The position numbers were made by a program, and so were the translations under genes. A stretch of 14,467 nt of DNA, taken from NCBI GenBank assembly GCA_027083075.1, contig JALWQQ010000196.1, positions 1-14,467 of the forward strand, given 5' to 3'. Source of the DNA: Campylobacteraceae bacterium. GTDB taxonomy: Bacteria > Campylobacterota > Campylobacteria > Campylobacterales > Sulfurovaceae. Below are positions 678 through 11,463 of the stretch, one piece after another; within the stretch, counting starts at the first letter, position 1, and each line of letters starts with the position of its first letter. Under the pieces are notes generated by a model. It did not search any database and was not told the DNA's origin. It saw only the letters and a program-made list of their open reading frames with translations.

Positions 678-1418
678 ATGCTAAAAACACGACTTCTGAC
701 GGCGGTGGCGCTAATCGTAGTGGTGGCAACCGTCGGCTACTTGGACAACTTTACGCTTACTTGGCTCTTTTTCGGCATTGTGGCGCTCTTCGCCTTTCAT
801 GAAGCGCTTCGACTCTTTGAGATCAAAAATAGCAGTCTCTATCTCTATGCGCTACTCTTATGGCTTGTCGCCTATCTCCACCCCTATCCCGAAGATCTCT
901 TTTTTCTCGCCGCTATTATCGTCGGTGCAACCGTCGCCTATCGTCCCCAAAGCGATGCGAAACTGTTACTACCCTTCCTCTATCCCCTCGGGGCAAGCTT
1001 CTTCTTTTTAGTACTCTACGAAGAGGTGGGGATGGAGGCGCTCGTATGGCTCTTGATCGTCGTCGCCTCTACCGATACCTTCGCCTACTTTGTCGGCAAG
1101 GCGATCGGCAAGCGAAAATTTTCCGACACCAGCCCCAATAAAACGATAGAAGGTGTGGCAGGCGGGGTGCTCTTTGCCACCCTTTTCGGTACGCTTTACG
1201 GCACAACGCTCCTTTCACTTCCAATAGCACTCATTGTCTCGTTACTCAGTGCCGTCGCCTCTGTCTTCGGGGATCTTTTCGAAAGTTACCTCAAACGCCA
1301 AGCGGGGGTCAAAGATAGCGGCGATCTGCTGCCGGGGCATGGCGGCATACTCGATCGCATCGACGGCTATCTCTTCGCCGCACCGATCATGACACTACTT
1401 GTGAGGCTCTTTGCGTGA
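678..1418 (+). CDS. cdsA: phosphatidate cytidylyltransferase
   Basis: CdsA makes CDP-diacylglycerol from phosphatidic acid and CTP, the branch-point step of phospholipid synthesis in the inner membrane. The 246-aa product starting at ATG 678 is highly hydrophobic with several membrane segments (beginning LLTAVALIVVVATVGYL). It carries the family motifs SPNKTIEGVAGG (about residues 153-164) and the C-terminal signature GDLFESYLKR, then GVKDSGDLLPGHGGILDRID. The frame is open back to 600, but that extension would run through the TATAAT box and adds charged residues before the first membrane segment, so I chose 678; GAGGGG at 661-666 is a distant, weak ribosome site. The stop TGA overlaps the GTG start of dxr (GTGA), indicating co-translation. 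Confidence 0.93.
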   Translation: MLKTRLLTAVALIVVVATVGYLDNFTLTWLFFGIVALFAFHEALRLFEIKNSSLYLYALLLWLVAYLHPYPEDLFFLAAIIVGATVAYRPQSDAKLLLPFLYPLGASFFFLVLYEEVGMEALVWLLIVVASTDTFAYFVGKAIGKRKFSDTSPNKTIEGVAGGVLFATLFGTLYGTTLLSLPIALIVSLLSAVASVFGDLFESYLKRQAGVKDSGDLLPGHGGILDRIDGYLFAAPIMTLLVRLFA

Positions 1419-2512
1419 GCATCGTCATTCTCGGCTCTACCGGCTCTATCGGCATCAATGCACTTGCGCTTTGCGATGCACACGAGATCGAAGTCGAAGC
1501 GCTTGTGGCAGGTAGAAATATCGATCTACTCAACGAACAGATCCGACGCTTTCATCCGCGCATGGTCGCCATCGCCGATGCTGCAGATGCACGCAAGGTG
1601 GCACACAACGATGTGCGCAGCGGCACAGAGGGAATACTCTCACTGATCGAAGAGAGCCAAAGCGAGATCGTGCTCAACGCACTTGTCGGTTTTGCGGGAC
1701 TCTTGCCTACCCTCAAAGCGATCGAAGCAGGCAAACGCATTGCCCTTGCCAACAAAGAGTCGCTGGTAGCCGGCGGTATGCTGATCGACACCTCGCACAT
1801 CATCCCTGTCGATAGCGAACACTTCGCCTTGCGCTATCTGATGAACGGGAAAGAGTTTCGCAAACTCTACATCACCGCAAGCGGCGGCGCCTTCAGAGAC
1901 TGGGAACTCGAAAAGATCGAAACGGCAAGCTTTGCCGATGCGCTGAAGCATCCCAACTGGTCGATGGGCGACAAGATCACGATCGATAGTGCTACGATGA
2001 CCAATAAACTTTTTGAGCTCCTAGAAGCCAAATGGCTCTTCGACTCCACCGCCGTCGATGCGCTGATAGAGCGCAGCTCTACGGTACATGCACTTATTGC
2101 CTACACGGACGGCTCAACCGTAGCACATATGGCAAGTACCGATATGAAGCTACCGATCGCCTTGGCACTCGGTATCGAACCCAAAAGTCCCGTCGTACCC
2201 GAAACCGATCCGCTTACGCTCTCACCTCTGCGTTTCGAAGCGATAGATGAGAGGCGCTACCCCATCTGGCAGATCAAGACACACCTGTTGCAACATCCAC
2301 ATCTTGGCGTCGTTATTAATGCCGCCAATGAAGTCGCTATCGAAGCCTTTAAAAAAGAGCGATGCAGCTTTTTCGGTATGAGCGACATCGTTTTGGATGC
2401 CTATAAGCATTTTGAAGATGTCGTTCCAAGCAGTATTGAAGATGTTGTCAAAATCGATGAAGAGGTAAGAAACTATGTGCGAATGAGCAACGGAGTAATG
2501 AGCAATGAGTAA
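1415..2512 (+). CDS. dxr: 1-deoxy-D-xylulose 5-phosphate reductoisomerase
   Basis: Dxr (IspC) converts DXP to 2-C-methyl-D-erythritol 4-phosphate with NADPH, the committed step of the MEP isoprenoid pathway. The 365-aa protein begins with the nucleotide-binding motif ILGSTGSIG (5-13). It has the metal ligands D133 and E135 in PVDSEHF, the flexible-loop region ASGGAFRDW (155-163) with HPNWSMGDKITIDSATM after it, E204 in LLEAKWLF, and INAANEVAIEAF near the C-terminus. The start is GTG, fixed by the Rossmann motif beginning at residue 3 and by the 4-bp overlap with cdsA. The last residues (RMSNGVMSNE) do not look like enzyme sequence: they are encoded by the heptad arm (about AATGAGN units) of the repeat element that follows, so the natural C-terminus was probably replaced or extended by it. 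Confidence 0.95.
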   Translation: MSIVILGSTGSIGINALALCDAHEIEVEALVAGRNIDLLNEQIRRFHPRMVAIADAADARKVAHNDVRSGTEGILSLIEESQSEIVLNALVGFAGLLPTLKAIEAGKRIALANKESLVAGGMLIDTSHIIPVDSEHFALRYLMNGKEFRKLYITASGGAFRDWELEKIETASFADALKHPNWSMGDKITIDSATMTNKLFELLEAKWLFDSTAVDALIERSSTVHALIAYTDGSTVAHMASTDMKLPIALALGIEPKSPVVPETDPLTLSPLRFEAIDERRYPIWQIKTHLLQHPHLGVVINAANEVAIEAFKKERCSFFGMSDIVLDAYKHFEDVVPSSIEDVVKIDEEVRNYVRMSNGVMSNE

Positions 2513-2612
2513 CCGAAAGAAAACAACTAAAGCGTTGCAGGGCAACGCATATCGAAATTCTTCATTCCTTATTCCTTATTCCTCATTTGAAAATCTCCTA
2601 AGGAGATTTTCA
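2482..2612 (+). repeat. composite palindromic heptad-repeat element, copy A
   Basis: Parts in order: a purine heptad arm of degenerate AATGAG-type units (about 2482-2510) that encodes the tail of dxr; a mini-hairpin GCGTTGC-AGG-GCAACGC (2532-2548); four pyrimidine heptads CTTCATT, CCTTATT, CCTTATT, CCTCATT (2560-2587), which in reverse complement read as the same AATGAG/AATAAG type; and a perfect hairpin TGAAAATCTCC-TAA-GGAGATTTTCA (2588-2612) ending on the A of the next ATG. A second copy with the same core and last hairpin but different heptads lies at 3145-3367. The two copies share 21 of 23 bases across the core (2529-2551 versus 3263-3285). Confidence 0.85.
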
Positions 2613-2615
2613 TGA
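2505..2615 (+). CDS. possible 36-aa leader peptide of element A
   Basis: An uninterrupted frame runs from ATG 2505 (overlapping the dxr end by 8 bp, GGAG 9 bases upstream) to TGA 2613-2615. The TGA overlaps the ATG of the hydrolase gene as ATGA. The peptide begins MSNRKKTTKALQGNAY and ends ENLLRRFS. The frame in element B shares KALQxNAY and ENLxRRFS and the same stop overlap. A ribosome translating it would open the hairpin that covers the ribosome site of the next gene and end where it must restart. The conserved peptide ends follow from conserved DNA, so they do not prove translation. No known function is recognised; it may be only an open frame in a repeat. Confidence 0.35.
   Translation: MSNRKKTTKALQGNAYRNSSFLIPYSSFENLLRRFS
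2588..2612 (+). promoter_or_regulatory. RBS-sequestering hairpin before the hydrolase gene
   Basis: Perfect 11-bp stem TGAAAATCTCC / GGAGATTTTCA with a 3-base TAA loop. The AAGGAG ribosome site (2600-2605) sits in the loop edge and 3' arm, 6 bases before ATG 2612. Folding of the mRNA would hide the ribosome site and the first base of the start codon. Confidence 0.65.
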
Positions 2616-3160
2616 AAGTCCTTATCTTGCACGGGTGGGGCGGTAGCGACTACCCGCACTGGCAAGCACACTTGGCGATGGAGATCGCCAAGCGCTACGG
2701 CACGGTGAGTTTTCCGCTGATACAACACCCTCACTACCCTTCCAAAAACCGATGGGTCAAGGAGGTGCGTGCAGCACTTGAGGATTTTCGTCCCGATACG
2801 GTTGTCTGCCACTCGCTTGCCAATACCTTATGGTTTTGGCTCTGCGAGATGCGTATCGCACCGCAGATCAAACGCCTCTTTATGGTCTCGCCGCCAAGTC
2901 TGCACACCTCCGAAGAGGTGCTTAAAAGCTTCTACCCCGCGCCGATGCCCGAAACCCTTTGCGCCGAAGAGGTTACACTCTTTGTCTCCGATAACGACCC
3001 GTGGATCGAGATAGACGAAGCCAAACAAATCACCGAACACTACGATGCTGCACTGCATATACTGCATGATGCGGGACATATCAATACCGAGAGCGGATTT
3101 GGAAAGTGGGAAGAGATAGAAAAATCGGTCTTATCCGATTTTTCAGTGAAGAGTGAATAG
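2612..3160 (+). CDS. RBBP9/YdeN-family serine hydrolase (alpha/beta fold)
   Basis: The 182-aa protein has the compact single-domain layout of the RBBP9/YdeN family. HGWGG at residues 7-11 forms the oxyanion region. The nucleophile Ser68 lies in VCHSLAN, a GxSxG variant with Cys in the first position. SDNDPW (126-131) supplies the acidic residue and GHINTESGFGKW (155-166) the catalytic His156. Members are small cytoplasmic carboxylesterase-like hydrolases of poorly known substrate, and no substrate can be given here. There is no signal peptide. The start ATG is fixed by the MKVLILHGWGG beginning and AAGGAG 6 bases upstream, which lies inside a hairpin. The last residues (about KSVLSDFSVKSE) are encoded by a hairpin and by the AGTGAAG heptads of element B. 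The gene sits between two copies of the same repeat element, so it may have been inserted between dxr and tsaD. Confidence 0.87.
   Translation: MKVLILHGWGGSDYPHWQAHLAMEIAKRYGTVSFPLIQHPHYPSKNRWVKEVRAALEDFRPDTVVCHSLANTLWFWLCEMRIAPQIKRLFMVSPPSLHTSEEVLKSFYPAPMPETLCAEEVTLFVSDNDPWIEIDEAKQITEHYDAALHILHDAGHINTESGFGKWEEIEKSVLSDFSVKSE
3119..3144 (+). terminator. hairpin overlapping the 3' end of the hydrolase gene
   Basis: Perfect 10-bp inverted repeat GAAAAATCGG-TCTTAT-CCGATTTTTC inside the last codons of the hydrolase gene. The descending arm ends in five T, so it could weakly terminate transcription or protect the mRNA 3' end. Its outer GAAAAATC resembles the outer GAAAATC of the two RBS hairpins, suggesting it belongs to the same element family. 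Confidence 0.45.
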
Positions 3161-3176
3161 AAAATAGTTACAGTAT

Positions 3177-3200
3177 GCTTTTCTTCGAAAAGCTTTTATT
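3177..3200 (+). terminator. candidate intrinsic terminator after the hydrolase gene
   Basis: GCTTTTC-TTC-GAAAAGC followed by TTTTATT, 16 bp after the hydrolase stop. The stem is 7 bp and only moderately GC-rich, so it is a weak candidate. If it works, tsaD needs a promoter in 3200-3350, and none with a clear -10 box is visible. Confidence 0.45.
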
Positions 3201-3226
3201 GAAAAATGACGCATGAGGAGCAAACA

Positions 3227-3370
3227 GTGAAAAACCAAAAACAGATCCACTTATTATTAATCAAAGCGTTGCAAAGCAACGCATACCCAACCCCTTCACC
3301 CTTCACCCTTCACCCTTCACCCTTCACTCTTCACTCTTCACTTGAAAATCTCCCAAGGAGATTTTCATGA
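3227..3370 (+). CDS. possible 47-aa leader peptide of element B
   Basis: GTG 3227 has a good ribosome site, GAGGAG, with 6-base spacing. The frame then stays open through the core hairpin and all seven heptads and stops at TGA 3368-3370, overlapping the tsaD ATG as ATGA. The peptide begins MKNQKQIHLLLIKALQSNAY. It contains two copies of PSPFTLH (three heptads make 21 bases, seven codons) and ends SSLENLPRRFS. The strong ribosome site, the stop position and the shared ends with the frame in element A favour a translated leader over chance. No protein family is recognised, the composition is repeat-driven, and no function as a protein is claimed. Confidence 0.42.
   Translation: MKNQKQIHLLLIKALQSNAYPTPSPFTLHPSPFTLHSSLENLPRRFS
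3343..3367 (+). promoter_or_regulatory. RBS-sequestering hairpin before tsaD
   Basis: Perfect 11-bp stem TGAAAATCTCC / GGAGATTTTCA with a CAA loop. AAGGAG (3355-3360) lies 6 bases before ATG 3367 and mostly in the 3' arm. It is identical to the hairpin before the hydrolase gene except for one loop base (T to C). Confidence 0.65.
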
Positions 3371-4380
3371 TCCTCAGCATCGAGTCCAGCTGCGATGACA
3401 GTTCTATCGCCGTTACGGAAATCGACACCTATAAGCTTCTATGGCATAAAAAGATCTCTCAAGAGACCGAACATAGCCGTTACGGTGGCGTGGTGCCGGA
3501 GCTTGCCAGCAGACTACATGCAGTGGCGTTGCCCAAACTGCTTGAAGAGACTAAGCCCTATTTCCCCGAAATCAAAGCTGTTGCCGTCACCAACCGTCCC
3601 GGTCTGGGCGTAACGCTGATGGAGGGGATCGCTATGGCAAAGAGTCTGGCTGCCTTTCTCGATATCCCCGTTATCCCGGTGCATCACCTTAAGGGGCATA
3701 TCTACTCGCTCTTCATCGAAAAAGCGACACGTTTTCCGATGCTTGTCGTTCTGCTCTCCGGAGGACACACCATGGTCGTTCGCGTAGAGGATTTTGACAC
3801 GATGGAGATCCTCGCTACGACGATGGATGACAGTGTAGGCGAAAGTTTTGACAAATGCGCCAAGATGATGGGGCTTGGCTATCCGGGCGGGCCCATCATC
3901 GAAGCACTTGCCAAAGAAGGCGACGAAAACCGTTTTGAGCTTCCCGTACCGCTTCGCAATGCCAAAGAGATCGCCTTTTCGCTTTCGGGGCTCAAAAATG
4001 CGGTGCGCCTAAGCATCGCCTCACTTGGGGGTGCGGAGCGGATGTCCCACCAAGAGAAGTGCAACCTTGCCGCCTCGTTTCAAAAGACGGTAGCGCTCCA
4101 CCTGCTTCAAAAGTGCAAAAAGCTCTTTGTGCGCGAGCCGATAGAAGATGTTGCCTTGGTAGGCGGCGTTGCCGCCAATGCCTATCTGCGCAGCCGTTTC
4201 GATGCACTCTGCAGCGAAACAGGTAAACGACTCCACACCGTACCGCTACGCTTCTGTGCTGACAATGCCGCGATGATCGGACGCTATGCGATCGACGCCT
4301 ATGAGAGAAAGGCGTTTGTTTCGCCAAGCGAACTGGATATGGAGACGACACGCAAACTTCGCCCCGACACGCTGCTATAG
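3367..4380 (+). CDS. tsaD: tRNA N6-adenosine threonylcarbamoyltransferase
   Basis: TsaD (formerly Gcp/YgjD) transfers the threonylcarbamoyl group from TC-AMP to A37 of ANN-decoding tRNAs, working with TsaB and TsaE in the cytoplasm. The 337-aa product has the complete ASKHA-type fold motifs: ILSIESSCDDSS at the N-terminus, HSRYGGVVPELASRLH (36-51), the metal ligands H107 and H111 in VHHLKGHIYS, LLSGGHTMV (129-137), DDSVGESFDKCAKMMGLGYPGG (154-175), FSLSGLKNAV, VGGVAANAYLR, and the third metal ligand D299 in CADNAAMIG. Length is normal for bacteria. The start is fixed by the family's N-terminus and AAGGAG, though that ribosome site lies in a hairpin. No usual threonylcarbamoylation partner is adjacent. 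The gene is generally essential in bacteria, which makes the repeat-laden leader notable. Confidence 0.96.
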   Translation: MILSIESSCDDSSIAVTEIDTYKLLWHKKISQETEHSRYGGVVPELASRLHAVALPKLLEETKPYFPEIKAVAVTNRPGLGVTLMEGIAMAKSLAAFLDIPVIPVHHLKGHIYSLFIEKATRFPMLVVLLSGGHTMVVRVEDFDTMEILATTMDDSVGESFDKCAKMMGLGYPGGPIIEALAKEGDENRFELPVPLRNAKEIAFSLSGLKNAVRLSIASLGGAERMSHQEKCNLAASFQKTVALHLLQKCKKLFVREPIEDVALVGGVAANAYLRSRFDALCSETGKRLHTVPLRFCADNAAMIGRYAIDAYERKAFVSPSELDMETTRKLRPDTLL

Positions 4381-9435: not shown

Positions 9436-11463
9436 TTATCCGACAAACAACGGGCGCATCATATCATGATCCTCATGAGAGAGAATATGACAATGCCATA
9501 CATACCTGCCCGGTCTATCAAAGGTCATTTTGATACGTGTTACCTCTCCGGGATAACAGATCACCATATCTCTTGGGCACTTCTCTGTCGGGTCTGCAGG
9601 TCTTAGTGTATTTGGTACAAGAGTTATGCCTTGCATCTCCGCGCCCAATCCGGTAGAGCCATTATGTAGAGTAATCGGCTTGTTGACAATGTTGGTTTGG
9701 AACTTCTCACGATTAAGGATCTCAAAATGCACCAAATGCACATGTATCGGATGTGCATCGGGAGTGTTATTGTAAATCTCCCAAATTTCAGTCGATCCCA
9801 GTGCAGGGTTTTCGGTGATAGGCATATGCCATGTAGTAGAGCCGTTGACCGTATTGCCCGCCATATCTACTGTAGGCTCGGCAACTCCAAGCATAGGCTG
9901 CAATCGCCCGAGCTCATCACGTCCCTCGAAGAGAGCTAGTTTTCTTACATTGTCAACCGGCGCTGTCACACCCGCAAAGTGTGCGATAAGTGTCGGATCA
10001 AAATTGTCCGGAATCGCGGAGAGTGGCTGCGTGACATCAAATGCCATGATCCTATCGGTCTGCCTGTTTGCAAACAGATTTGCAGGATCAAACCCGGGAT
10101 CCGTGGTCAATGTACCGTCAAACGGTGCATCACCTGCAATATTTTCCATAATCACGCGAGAGCCTGCAGGCACCTGCGAGAAATCCACAACAATGTCCGG
10201 TCTCTCGGCGGGCGCTACGACCAATTGATTGACCTGTGTTGCCTGCGCCGCAAGCCCGAGATCCCCACCGATATGCCAAAATGGCAGAATCGGATCGTTA
10301 GCACTTATCGTTGTAGCACCTGCGGGAACGATACGAAAACGAATGCCTAAAAATCTCGAATCACACCCGTTCAAAAGTCTCAAGCGATAGTGTCGAGGCT
10401 CTACGTTCGTTTTGGGCCAAATTTTACCATTGACCACGATATGATCACCGAAAAACTCCGTTAAGACGGTAGGACCGCCATTGGGAAATTGTGCGGCAGG
10501 CAAATTGACACCATTGGCAGTGATAAAATCCGCATAACTCGGATCACTGGGATACGCAGGATAGAAGAGCTCACCATTGCTCTTAAACATCTTATCTTGT
10601 ATCGCATATGCCAACTCGTACGGACCGGCAGGTAGTCCAAGCGGATTGTTTAGTTTACCCGTGTCCTGATTGTCTCTTATGAAATAAAAACCAACCAATC
10701 CGGCATAGACATTCAATCTTGTGATGCCAAGACTATGGTCGTGATACCACAGTGCACCTGCCTGTTGGGTATTGTCATAAACATAATTTTTATGTACCCA
10801 GCGAGGACCTTTTATCTTAAAGTTTGGTGAAAAGAAGTACTCGGGGTTTCCATCCGAATTGGTATTGACATGTGCACCGTGCACATGCGGCACGATGGGT
10901 ACTCCGTCCGTGTTGATATTGTACTGCGTATAACCCGGGATGCCGTACGCCCAGTGAAAAGAGGTATCTACGGGTAAAATGTGCGGGAGTGGTGTGCCTG
11001 CACTAACAAGCTTATTTCTCCACTTGATCTTGAGCTTTTGGTTTGTAAAGACCTCGATCGTCTTACCGGGCCAAGTGACATTCCATTTTTTTCTTCCGTA
11101 ACCCCAAACCGGTGTCAAAAGTGCATTGCCGTTAGCATCAACCAGACCTGTTTTGTGCACATATTGCGCTGCAACGATTTTGAGCTTTTTAGCTTTTTTT
11201 CGGTGGCGATGCTTGTGATGCTTATGACCCGACTTGTGAAAATACTTAAACTTCGGCGACAAAGCATTGGGTGCCAACTCTACAAATTTCGGCTGCAATG
11301 CAGGATCGCTAAGCGGTCCGTTAGAACTACCCAATGAGGCAGCCTCGGCACCGGAAGAGCCGACAGCCAACCCCAAGGCACCTACTTGCATTACACTACC
11401 CGCACCAAGTGCGGCACTACCTTTAAGAAAACCACGACGTGAAAGTTTGGATTTCTTTTTCAT
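9436..11463 (-). CDS. Tat-exported multicopper oxidase, CotA/bilirubin-oxidase type
   Basis: A 675-aa laccase-like oxidase that should oxidise a phenol, metal ion or similar donor and reduce O2 to water in the periplasm; the substrate cannot be read from sequence. The N-terminus has a twin-arginine signal (SRRGFLKG, 8-15, then a hydrophobic stretch to about 41, ending GAEA). Copper ligands are complete: HVH (193-195), WYHDH (239-243), HPIHVHLVHF (571-580) and HCHILSHEDHDMM (657-669), giving T1 ligands H571, C658, H663 and M668. The spacing and LNVYAGLVGFYFIRD match the CotA group. An unusual basic His-rich stretch (HKSGHKHHKHRHRKKAKK, 76-93) lies between signal and first cupredoxin domain. 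The start ATG follows AGGGGGAAG. It faces queF/DUF2853 and lies beyond the str operon, with no copper genes beside it, so it may be an acquired single gene. Confidence 0.92.
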   Translation of the reverse strand: MKKKSKLSRRGFLKGSAALGAGSVMQVGALGLAVGSSGAEAASLGSSNGPLSDPALQPKFVELAPNALSPKFKYFHKSGHKHHKHRHRKKAKKLKIVAAQYVHKTGLVDANGNALLTPVWGYGRKKWNVTWPGKTIEVFTNQKLKIKWRNKLVSAGTPLPHILPVDTSFHWAYGIPGYTQYNINTDGVPIVPHVHGAHVNTNSDGNPEYFFSPNFKIKGPRWVHKNYVYDNTQQAGALWYHDHSLGITRLNVYAGLVGFYFIRDNQDTGKLNNPLGLPAGPYELAYAIQDKMFKSNGELFYPAYPSDPSYADFITANGVNLPAAQFPNGGPTVLTEFFGDHIVVNGKIWPKTNVEPRHYRLRLLNGCDSRFLGIRFRIVPAGATTISANDPILPFWHIGGDLGLAAQATQVNQLVVAPAERPDIVVDFSQVPAGSRVIMENIAGDAPFDGTLTTDPGFDPANLFANRQTDRIMAFDVTQPLSAIPDNFDPTLIAHFAGVTAPVDNVRKLALFEGRDELGRLQPMLGVAEPTVDMAGNTVNGSTTWHMPITENPALGSTEIWEIYNNTPDAHPIHVHLVHFEILNREKFQTNIVNKPITLHNGSTGLGAEMQGITLVPNTLRPADPTEKCPRDMVICYPGEVTRIKMTFDRPGRYVWHCHILSHEDHDMMRPLFVG

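Follow-up and report, generated by a model that had tools for sequence, protein, structure and literature searches.

The stretch of DNA analysed here (the window) comprises 14,467 nucleotides of contig JALWQQ010000196.1 from a Campylobacteraceae bacterium (assembly GCA_027083075.1). On its plus strand lie dxr (1415..2512; TIGR00243 above cut-off, the match ending at residue 357 of 365), a gene of the Ser_hydrolase family (2612..3160; PF06821; hereafter the hydrolase) and tsaD (3367..4380; TIGR03723 above cut-off). The two junctions flanking the hydrolase each hold one copy, A upstream and B downstream, of a composite palindromic element made largely of seven-base repeat units (heptads). A and B are members of an intergenic palindromic repeat family of vent-type Campylobacterota (Sulfurovum/Nitratifractor-type genomes), in which hairpins over gene starts accompany the heptad arrays.

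Copy A begins inside dxr, where a plus-strand purine arm of AATGAG-type heptads (2482..2512, assigned from sequence and fold) contains the stop codon and supplies the last codons of the gene (RMSNGVMSNE*). Next come a right-hand core hairpin, GCGTTGC-AGG-GCAACGC (2532..2548, from core search and fold; GCATATCGAAA follows it), a pyrimidine heptad array on the plus strand (2557..2587) with a strict period-7 run at 2564-2583, and a plus-strand start hairpin, TGAAAATCTCC-TAA-GGAGATTTTCA (2588..2612), which carries a Shine-Dalgarno motif on its right arm and whose final base is the A of the hydrolase ATG. Copy B partly encodes the C-terminal sequence SVLSDFSVKSE of the hydrolase, a protein whose orthologues stop earlier. 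It comprises a left-end hairpin, GAAAAATCGG-TCTTAT-CCGATTTTTC (3119..3144), whose host arm is the last hydrolase codons; a plus-strand purine arm, AGTGAAGAGTGAATAG (3145..3160), containing the hydrolase stop codon; a plus-strand left core, GTATGCTTTTC-TTC-GAAAAGCTTTTATTG (3173..3201, from sequence and the relaxed-core search); a right core inverted with respect to the left one and read on the minus strand as GGTATGCGTTGC-TTT-GCAACGCTTTGATT (3266..3282); a plus-strand pyrimidine array (3291..3342); and a plus-strand start hairpin, TGAAAATCTCC-CAA-GGAGATTTTCA (3343..3367), ending on the A of the tsaD ATG.

A preliminary description of this DNA had reported four parts at both junctions: a purine arm, a core of GCGTTGC/GCAACGC, a pyrimidine array and, last, a hairpin of 25 bases. 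These were all recovered, with corrections. The second, inverted core and the hydrolase-codon hairpin at 3119-3144 in copy B are additions to it, as is the finding that the last hairpin contains the Shine-Dalgarno and ends on the A of the ATG. Its 13-base perfect complement between the copy B arms is exact (AGTGAAGAGTGAA). Matching of the arms inside each copy holds for B; the arms of A have no perfect complement of more than 6 bases, and their stem includes mismatches and G-T pairs. The core and last hairpin, said to be conserved, are so between A and B, whose 25-base hairpins differ by one loop base and each contain the Shine-Dalgarno sequence GGAG; across the family the last hairpin is gene-specific. 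Both junctions folded more stably than 200 of 200 shuffled sequences (z = -4.17 for A and -7.55 for B). Among tandem periods of 4 to 12, only period 7 occurred in the window, as two runs that are the A and B arrays, and no Rfam model matched the window at its gathering score. Elsewhere in the window, the minus strand encodes a multicopper oxidase with a twin-arginine translocation (TAT) signal (9436-11463).

The genome of the window is 83% complete, and 41 genomes were searched for heptad arrays. The exact core GCGTTGC-N3-GCAACGC, which the preliminary description had proposed as a search query, occurs in the genome of the window at two places only, both in the window itself, whereas heptad arrays and a relaxed core recur. 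Arrays of at least four YTYAYNN units were found at 11 places on 9 contigs of this genome (15 overlapping matches) and in 20 of the 41 genomes; a control with the pattern reversed is matched as well, since heptad arrays conform to either pattern, and these counts give no measure of chance. The relaxed core, which kept a fixed TTGC/GCAA stem, matched 73 stretches in the named genome collection, all Campylobacterota by title and mostly Sulfurovum, Nitratifractor and Campylobacteraceae metagenome-assembled genomes (MAGs), and was found again in the genome of the window and its relatives. The order of parts in the family is purine heptads, a GGTATGC core hairpin, pyrimidine heptads, and a hairpin over the ribosome-binding site and start codon of the next gene. 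Further short palindromes of the GGGGTCAGACCCC and GGGACTGAAGTCCC types occur in the same intergenic mosaics (L008, L031, L033, L099 and L108).

The period was surveyed in evenly spaced samples totalling 400 kb of the finished genome of Nitratifractor salsuginis (G019). Strict tandem arrays numbered 36 at period 7; 3, 2, 1 and 1 at periods 8, 9, 15 and 21; and none at periods 3-6, 10-14 and 16-20. A looser threshold gave 57 arrays, none longer than 34 bases, of which 29 measured 29-32 bases; elsewhere in the genome there is one array of about 145 bases. The pile-up of lengths at 29-32 bases (L170-L189) corresponds to about four units plus a few bases, and slippage alone is not expected to yield so sharp a limit. 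Heptad types vary widely inside this genome. Purine heptads such as AGTGAAG supply a stop codon in every reading frame, and their complement is free of stops in each; the arrays may be tolerated at junctions because the purine heptads stop upstream frames while the complement stays open before the next gene. Arrays are also read as coding sequence in two cases, one in frame in the N-terminus of an M16-like peptidase of G001 (L085 1300-1560, compared with L166 of G000) and one inside a probable signal peptide of G014 (L036).

Hairpins with a stem score of at least 8 were concentrated at the boundaries of arrays. In four genomes with 251 array ends, 28 ends had such a hairpin starting within 7 bases of the boundary, compared with 15 in the next bin and 29 in six further bins of equal size together. 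On inspection of 21 of the 28 (the other seven being cores, orthologue repeats or weak), 20 were found to include a candidate start codon for the gene next to them, one of these doubtful; the sole boundary hairpin lacking one lies at an lnt-like gene. In the named MAG loci, start hairpins accompanied 15 of the 46 starts led by an array and none of the 324 array-free ones (p = 2.7e-15). The corresponding figures were 6 of 22 and 2 of 257 in N. salsuginis (5 of 21 and 2 of 272 under other start rules), 5 of 12 and 1 of 29 in G001, and 3 of 9 and 0 of 21 in G016. The named loci were selected by the core, and since contigs of both G001 and G016 are among them, these rows overlap. Chance hairpins are ruled out by the array-free starts, which almost never have such hairpins, and an assembly artefact is unlikely, as the finished N. 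salsuginis genome shows the same hairpins.

Among 197 permissively called array-led starts across all loci, 58 had an abutting hairpin. The start codon lay in the right arm of 40 and in the loop of 9. A Shine-Dalgarno-like motif occupied the left arm in 21, the loop in 23 and the right arm in 1, and 13 had none. In A and B, and at further genes in L197 and L241, the whole hairpin falls within the 5' leader and is centred on CTCC-NAA-GGAG. The distance from array end to start, taken over the 46 array-led starts, was mostly 16-29 bases and clustered at about 18-24.

Regulation at the level of RNA could explain this arrangement. The start hairpin would shut the ribosome-binding site, the pyrimidine array would serve as an S1-type ribosome standby site, and the purine arm, in which the upstream gene has its stop codon, would mask the array until upstream ribosomes melt the pairing; this amounts to long-range translational coupling, with pairing that evolved by selection and not by copying. 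The clustered array-to-start distance is in line with such a role, as is the placement of arrays in the named loci, where pyrimidine arrays stand before 35 of 46 starts and purine arrays near 43 of 51 stops. Hairpins likewise concentrate at starts, where the uncorrected count is 38 of 93 ends compared with 11 of 90 on the stop side, and filled starts fold at about -12 to -26 kcal/mol. However, a stem as long as 19 bp over a start codon should impede initiation, inverted copies occur at some gene ends too, and the heptad arms do not covary by locus (see below). Stem mismatches moreover show no preference for G-T (3 of 13, a small sample), which argues against selection on RNA structure as the sole cause and fits DNA copying and decay. 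We regard RNA regulation as an unlikely explanation of the element.

The sequence of the last hairpin points to the neighbouring gene. It varies from gene to gene and fits its own gene start, and in many lineages one arm is often the reverse complement of the first codons. At the hydrolase junction, GATGAGGATTTTC faces GAAAATCCTCATC in G016, CAAAATAAGG faces CCTTATTTTG in G014, and AGTAAGAGGAGCTTC faces GAAGCTCCTGTTACT with one mismatch in N. salsuginis; each tracks the synonymous codons of its own gene. The mean arm score against the own start and against the starts of orthologues was 11.2 and 5.9 for the hydrolase, 13.8 and 7.4 for tsaD, 13.7 and 6.8 for dxr, and 11 and 6 for murD. The own-start means are raised by the fact that only arms scoring at least 8 were compared (5 of 16, 5 of 20, 3 of 12 and 4 of 5 junctions, respectively, some from close relatives). 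Inverted host copies also occur at gene ends, where no start is needed: after six misfiled starts had been moved by eye, 5 of 84 stop-side ends had a hairpin, and the one at 3119-3144 in the window is such a copy. The occurrence of inverted host copies at element edges, often on the start side and sometimes on the stop side, is indicative of copying.

Orthologous junctions without the element were also found. The dxr-hydrolase junction lacks the element in G010, G009, G015 and G013, where the two genes overlap or abut. Over a 60-base start region (with the hydrolase start of G001, G002 and G010 set at a later in-frame codon), filled junctions folded at -12.2 to -26.2 kcal/mol (both genes in G000, G001, G016 and N. 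salsuginis, and the hydrolase in G014) and array-free junctions, with two exceptions, at -2.0 to -9.3 kcal/mol. The tsaD junction of G027, which has a short array, folded at -14.4 kcal/mol, and that of G014, with a different insertion, at -10.1 kcal/mol. Of nine orthologous junctions aligned between G000 and G001, which belong to one genus, three were cleanly empty in G000 and filled in G001: those of an iron-sulphur protein (L157/L068), a queE-like gene (L168/L066) and the M16-like peptidase (L166/L085), where the array encodes part of the N-terminus, all named by eye. At the queE-like site, the FYL codons are common to both genomes and the G001 arm is complementary to them. The remaining six were filled in both genomes, held other palindromes or aligned ambiguously.

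The preliminary description had further suggested that the left and right heptads change together from locus to locus. The best complement of each array in its own flanks was compared with that in the flanks of other array loci by a one-sided Wilcoxon test. Own flanks were not better in any of the four genomes: N. salsuginis (57 arrays, p = 0.31), G001 (32 arrays, p = 0.95), the genome of the window (14 arrays, p = 0.79) and G016 (24 arrays, p = 0.97), the power being low in genomes with few heptad types, of which N. salsuginis has many. For 17 neighbouring arm pairs in N. salsuginis, 412 of 1000 permutations were equally good. Per-locus covariation of the heptad arms was thus rejected as a general rule, and their likeness is attributed mainly to a set of heptads shared within each genome. 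A well-matched minority exists: 8 of the 57 arrays in N. salsuginis scored above every one of the 20 comparison loci (expectation about 2.7), one example pairing AGTGGGT with ACCCACT, and copy B is likewise well matched. The core stem does covary, with a mean of 4.1 pairs over 19 cores compared with 1.54 for shuffled partners (highest of 500 shuffles, 3.2); these cores were chosen by the outer motif only, some are orthologous, and three have a broken first pair. The preliminary description was right in seeing a repeated palindromic element with palindromes that are kept up; its matching of heptad arms locus by locus is not supported. In L132, the G001 orthologue of copy A, a rare CGTT variant heptad is present in both arms (AACGAAG and CTTCGTT), the outcome that arm-to-arm copying would give. 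In L172 (5314-5408) of N. salsuginis, some stems pair at six of seven heptad positions, the seventh being a regular mismatch every seven bases.

The observations to be accounted for are the anatomy of the element, its spread, its absence from orthologous abutting junctions and the tie of start hairpins to arrays. Our best explanation, held with slightly more doubt than confidence, is element insertion combined with fold-back template switching and selection for a Shine-Dalgarno motif. On this reading, A and B represent a dispersed palindromic element without coding capacity, which becomes fixed where gene junctions are tight. The element would enter abutting or overlapping junctions, moved perhaps by a RAYT-like transposase as the best candidate, and would thereby part the next gene from a ribosome-binding site formerly within the upstream gene. 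The replicating strand could then fold back at the element edge and reverse-copy host sequence, as in template switching of the quasipalindrome type, so that a hairpin of about 8-19 bp forms with the leader or first codons of the gene as its host arm. Survival would be best where the reversed copy, or a retained leader, spaces a Shine-Dalgarno motif correctly from the start, and the same copying would hold the core stems palindromic. Template switching had been offered as a mechanism in the preliminary description, and we judge it sensible.

Transposition itself might also have created the end hairpins, if the element is a REPIN-like unit mobilised in trans by a Y1 transposase of the REP-associated tyrosine transposase (RAYT) type, REP denoting repetitive extragenic palindromic sequences. 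The two cores of copy B are in inverted orientation, as in REPINs, and N. salsuginis encodes a protein above the NCBIfam REP_Tyr_transpos cut-off (81.8 against 80), although that of the genome of the window falls just below it (67.6). A Y1 match in an open frame of 250-300 amino acids was found in 10 of 14 array-rich genomes, defined by at least 4 heptad matches, compared with 5 of the 27 others (Fisher p = 0.0017). The corresponding figures are 9 of 11 and 3 of 14 inside the family (p = 0.005), and 13 of 14 and 14 of 27 for any Y1 match (p = 0.014); the size class was picked after viewing the list, and kinship is uncontrolled in all these statistics, which tempers the association. Because the association with array-rich genomes is significant, RAYT was raised to a serious rival, and a RAYT gene is a candidate for the putative mover of the element. 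REPs usually flank their RAYT gene, but none of 11 Y1 gene regions (3.0-5.0 kb each) contained heptad arrays or core-like hairpins, and G014, with 32 heptad matches, lacks any match to Y1. Y1 transposition is not known to invert-duplicate its target. As a full account of the hairpins, RAYT transposition is given a low probability.

Fold-back of a reverse transcript at the 5' end of a messenger RNA would produce a reversed start copy, a loop and the start, the layout expected of self-primed complementary DNA. RVT_1 was found in 13 of the 41 genomes, comprising 4 of 14 array-rich and 9 of 27 other genomes, and in none of the array-rich G000, G001, G014, G016 and N. salsuginis. A reverse transcriptase, absent from most array-rich genomes, does not fit, and this origin of the inverted copies is highly improbable. 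A weak lead concerns loss of SbcD as a permissive factor for arrays: SbcD was above cut-off in 1 of 14 array-rich and 8 of 27 other genomes (p = 0.13, kinship uncontrolled), and two members of one genus are in line with this idea, N. salsuginis having arrays and no SbcD match, and G010 having SbcD but no arrays.

Several observations weigh against insertion followed by fold-back copying. In the named loci, 31 of the 46 array-led starts have no strong hairpin, so that the hairpin either decays or is not obligatory. Copying should homogenise the heptad arms, which nevertheless lack per-locus covariation. Two array-free junctions fold strongly (the G027 hydrolase at -16.4 and the G005 tsaD at -12.0 kcal/mol). 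The polarity of the three empty/filled pairs is presumed, and their alignments show no clear target duplication, the hairpins blurring the boundaries. The comparisons rest throughout on fixed differences between species. Plain insertion without selection would also not predict a start side so far above the stop side; we infer that this excess reflects selection for a Shine-Dalgarno motif, because the original lay in the upstream gene.

We tentatively extend the fold-back reading to the family, with rather more reservation: the spread of the element may be tied to recurrent copying that rebuilds start sites, the reverse complement of a gene's own first codons becoming, at many of the junctions split by the element, its leader and supplying the Shine-Dalgarno motif, such that genes in one bacterial lineage would repeatedly and independently have gained self-templated ribosome-binding sites. 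If so, there would be a natural and recurrent way of splitting overlapping operon junctions in which the gene itself immediately provides a new ribosome-binding site. The old puzzle of bacterial heptamer repeats, met in Cyanobacteria and Beggiatoaceae, could then be put to the test in N. salsuginis, a cultivated type strain whose genome is finished. It would also have to be asked how translation of dxr, tsaD, murD and a selB-like gene proceeds with start codons in stems of about 9-16 bp.

Among known systems, REPIN/REP sequences with RAYT are likewise short dispersed palindromes with two inverted hairpins, and a RAYT-like gene is present in many of the genomes studied here. The present element differs in its heptad arms, in RAYT genes that are not flanked by it, and apparently in its flanking motif: REP hairpins have at their foot a conserved tetranucleotide of the GTAG/GGAG type, and the foot of the core hairpin here is GGT(A/T)TGC. 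Compared with the terminal inverted repeats of miniature inverted-repeat transposable elements (MITEs), the arms are inverted in type and not matched by locus. Quasipalindrome template switching homogenises the arms of inverted repeats by copying one onto the other and is, in the excerpts consulted, a mutation of existing imperfect inverted repeats (PMC7202029, PMC8604942); in the present case, it is host sequence that is copied in inverted form, again and again, at junctions with one repeat element.

Pairing seven-base repeats are described, in the available part of the report, for the P6b stem of the Nostoc trnL group I intron, as Class I (TDNGATT) and Class II (NNTGAGT), the latter resembling the AATGAGT units of copy A; there they are restricted to one intron stem, and that part describes no gene-start hairpin (PMC4476775). 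The TAACTGA direct repeats of Beggiatoaceae, Cyanobacteria and Bacteroidetes are, according to the excerpted text, also tandem intergenic heptamers, often just before start codons and with one orientation open for reading while the other has stops; they consist of a single heptamer with no predicted hairpin, and canonical ribosome-binding sites are rare among them, at about 10% of repeat regions (MacGregor 2015, PMC4679880). The element described here shares the tandem heptamers closely upstream of 46 array-led starts. It differs in its many heptads (the units of A and B being of the AATGAG, AATAAG and AGTGAAG types and not TAACTGA), its paired arms, its core hairpin and the Shine-Dalgarno motif inside the start hairpin. 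The word 'tandem' does not occur in the available portion of the genome paper of N. salsuginis E9I37-1T, and start hairpins of this kind were not found in the open-access literature searched, within which they appear undescribed; their absence in print is not thereby established. As far as these searches show, heptamer repeats before starts are known, and what appears to be new is the near-perfect start hairpin, often made of the reversed first codons of the gene itself.

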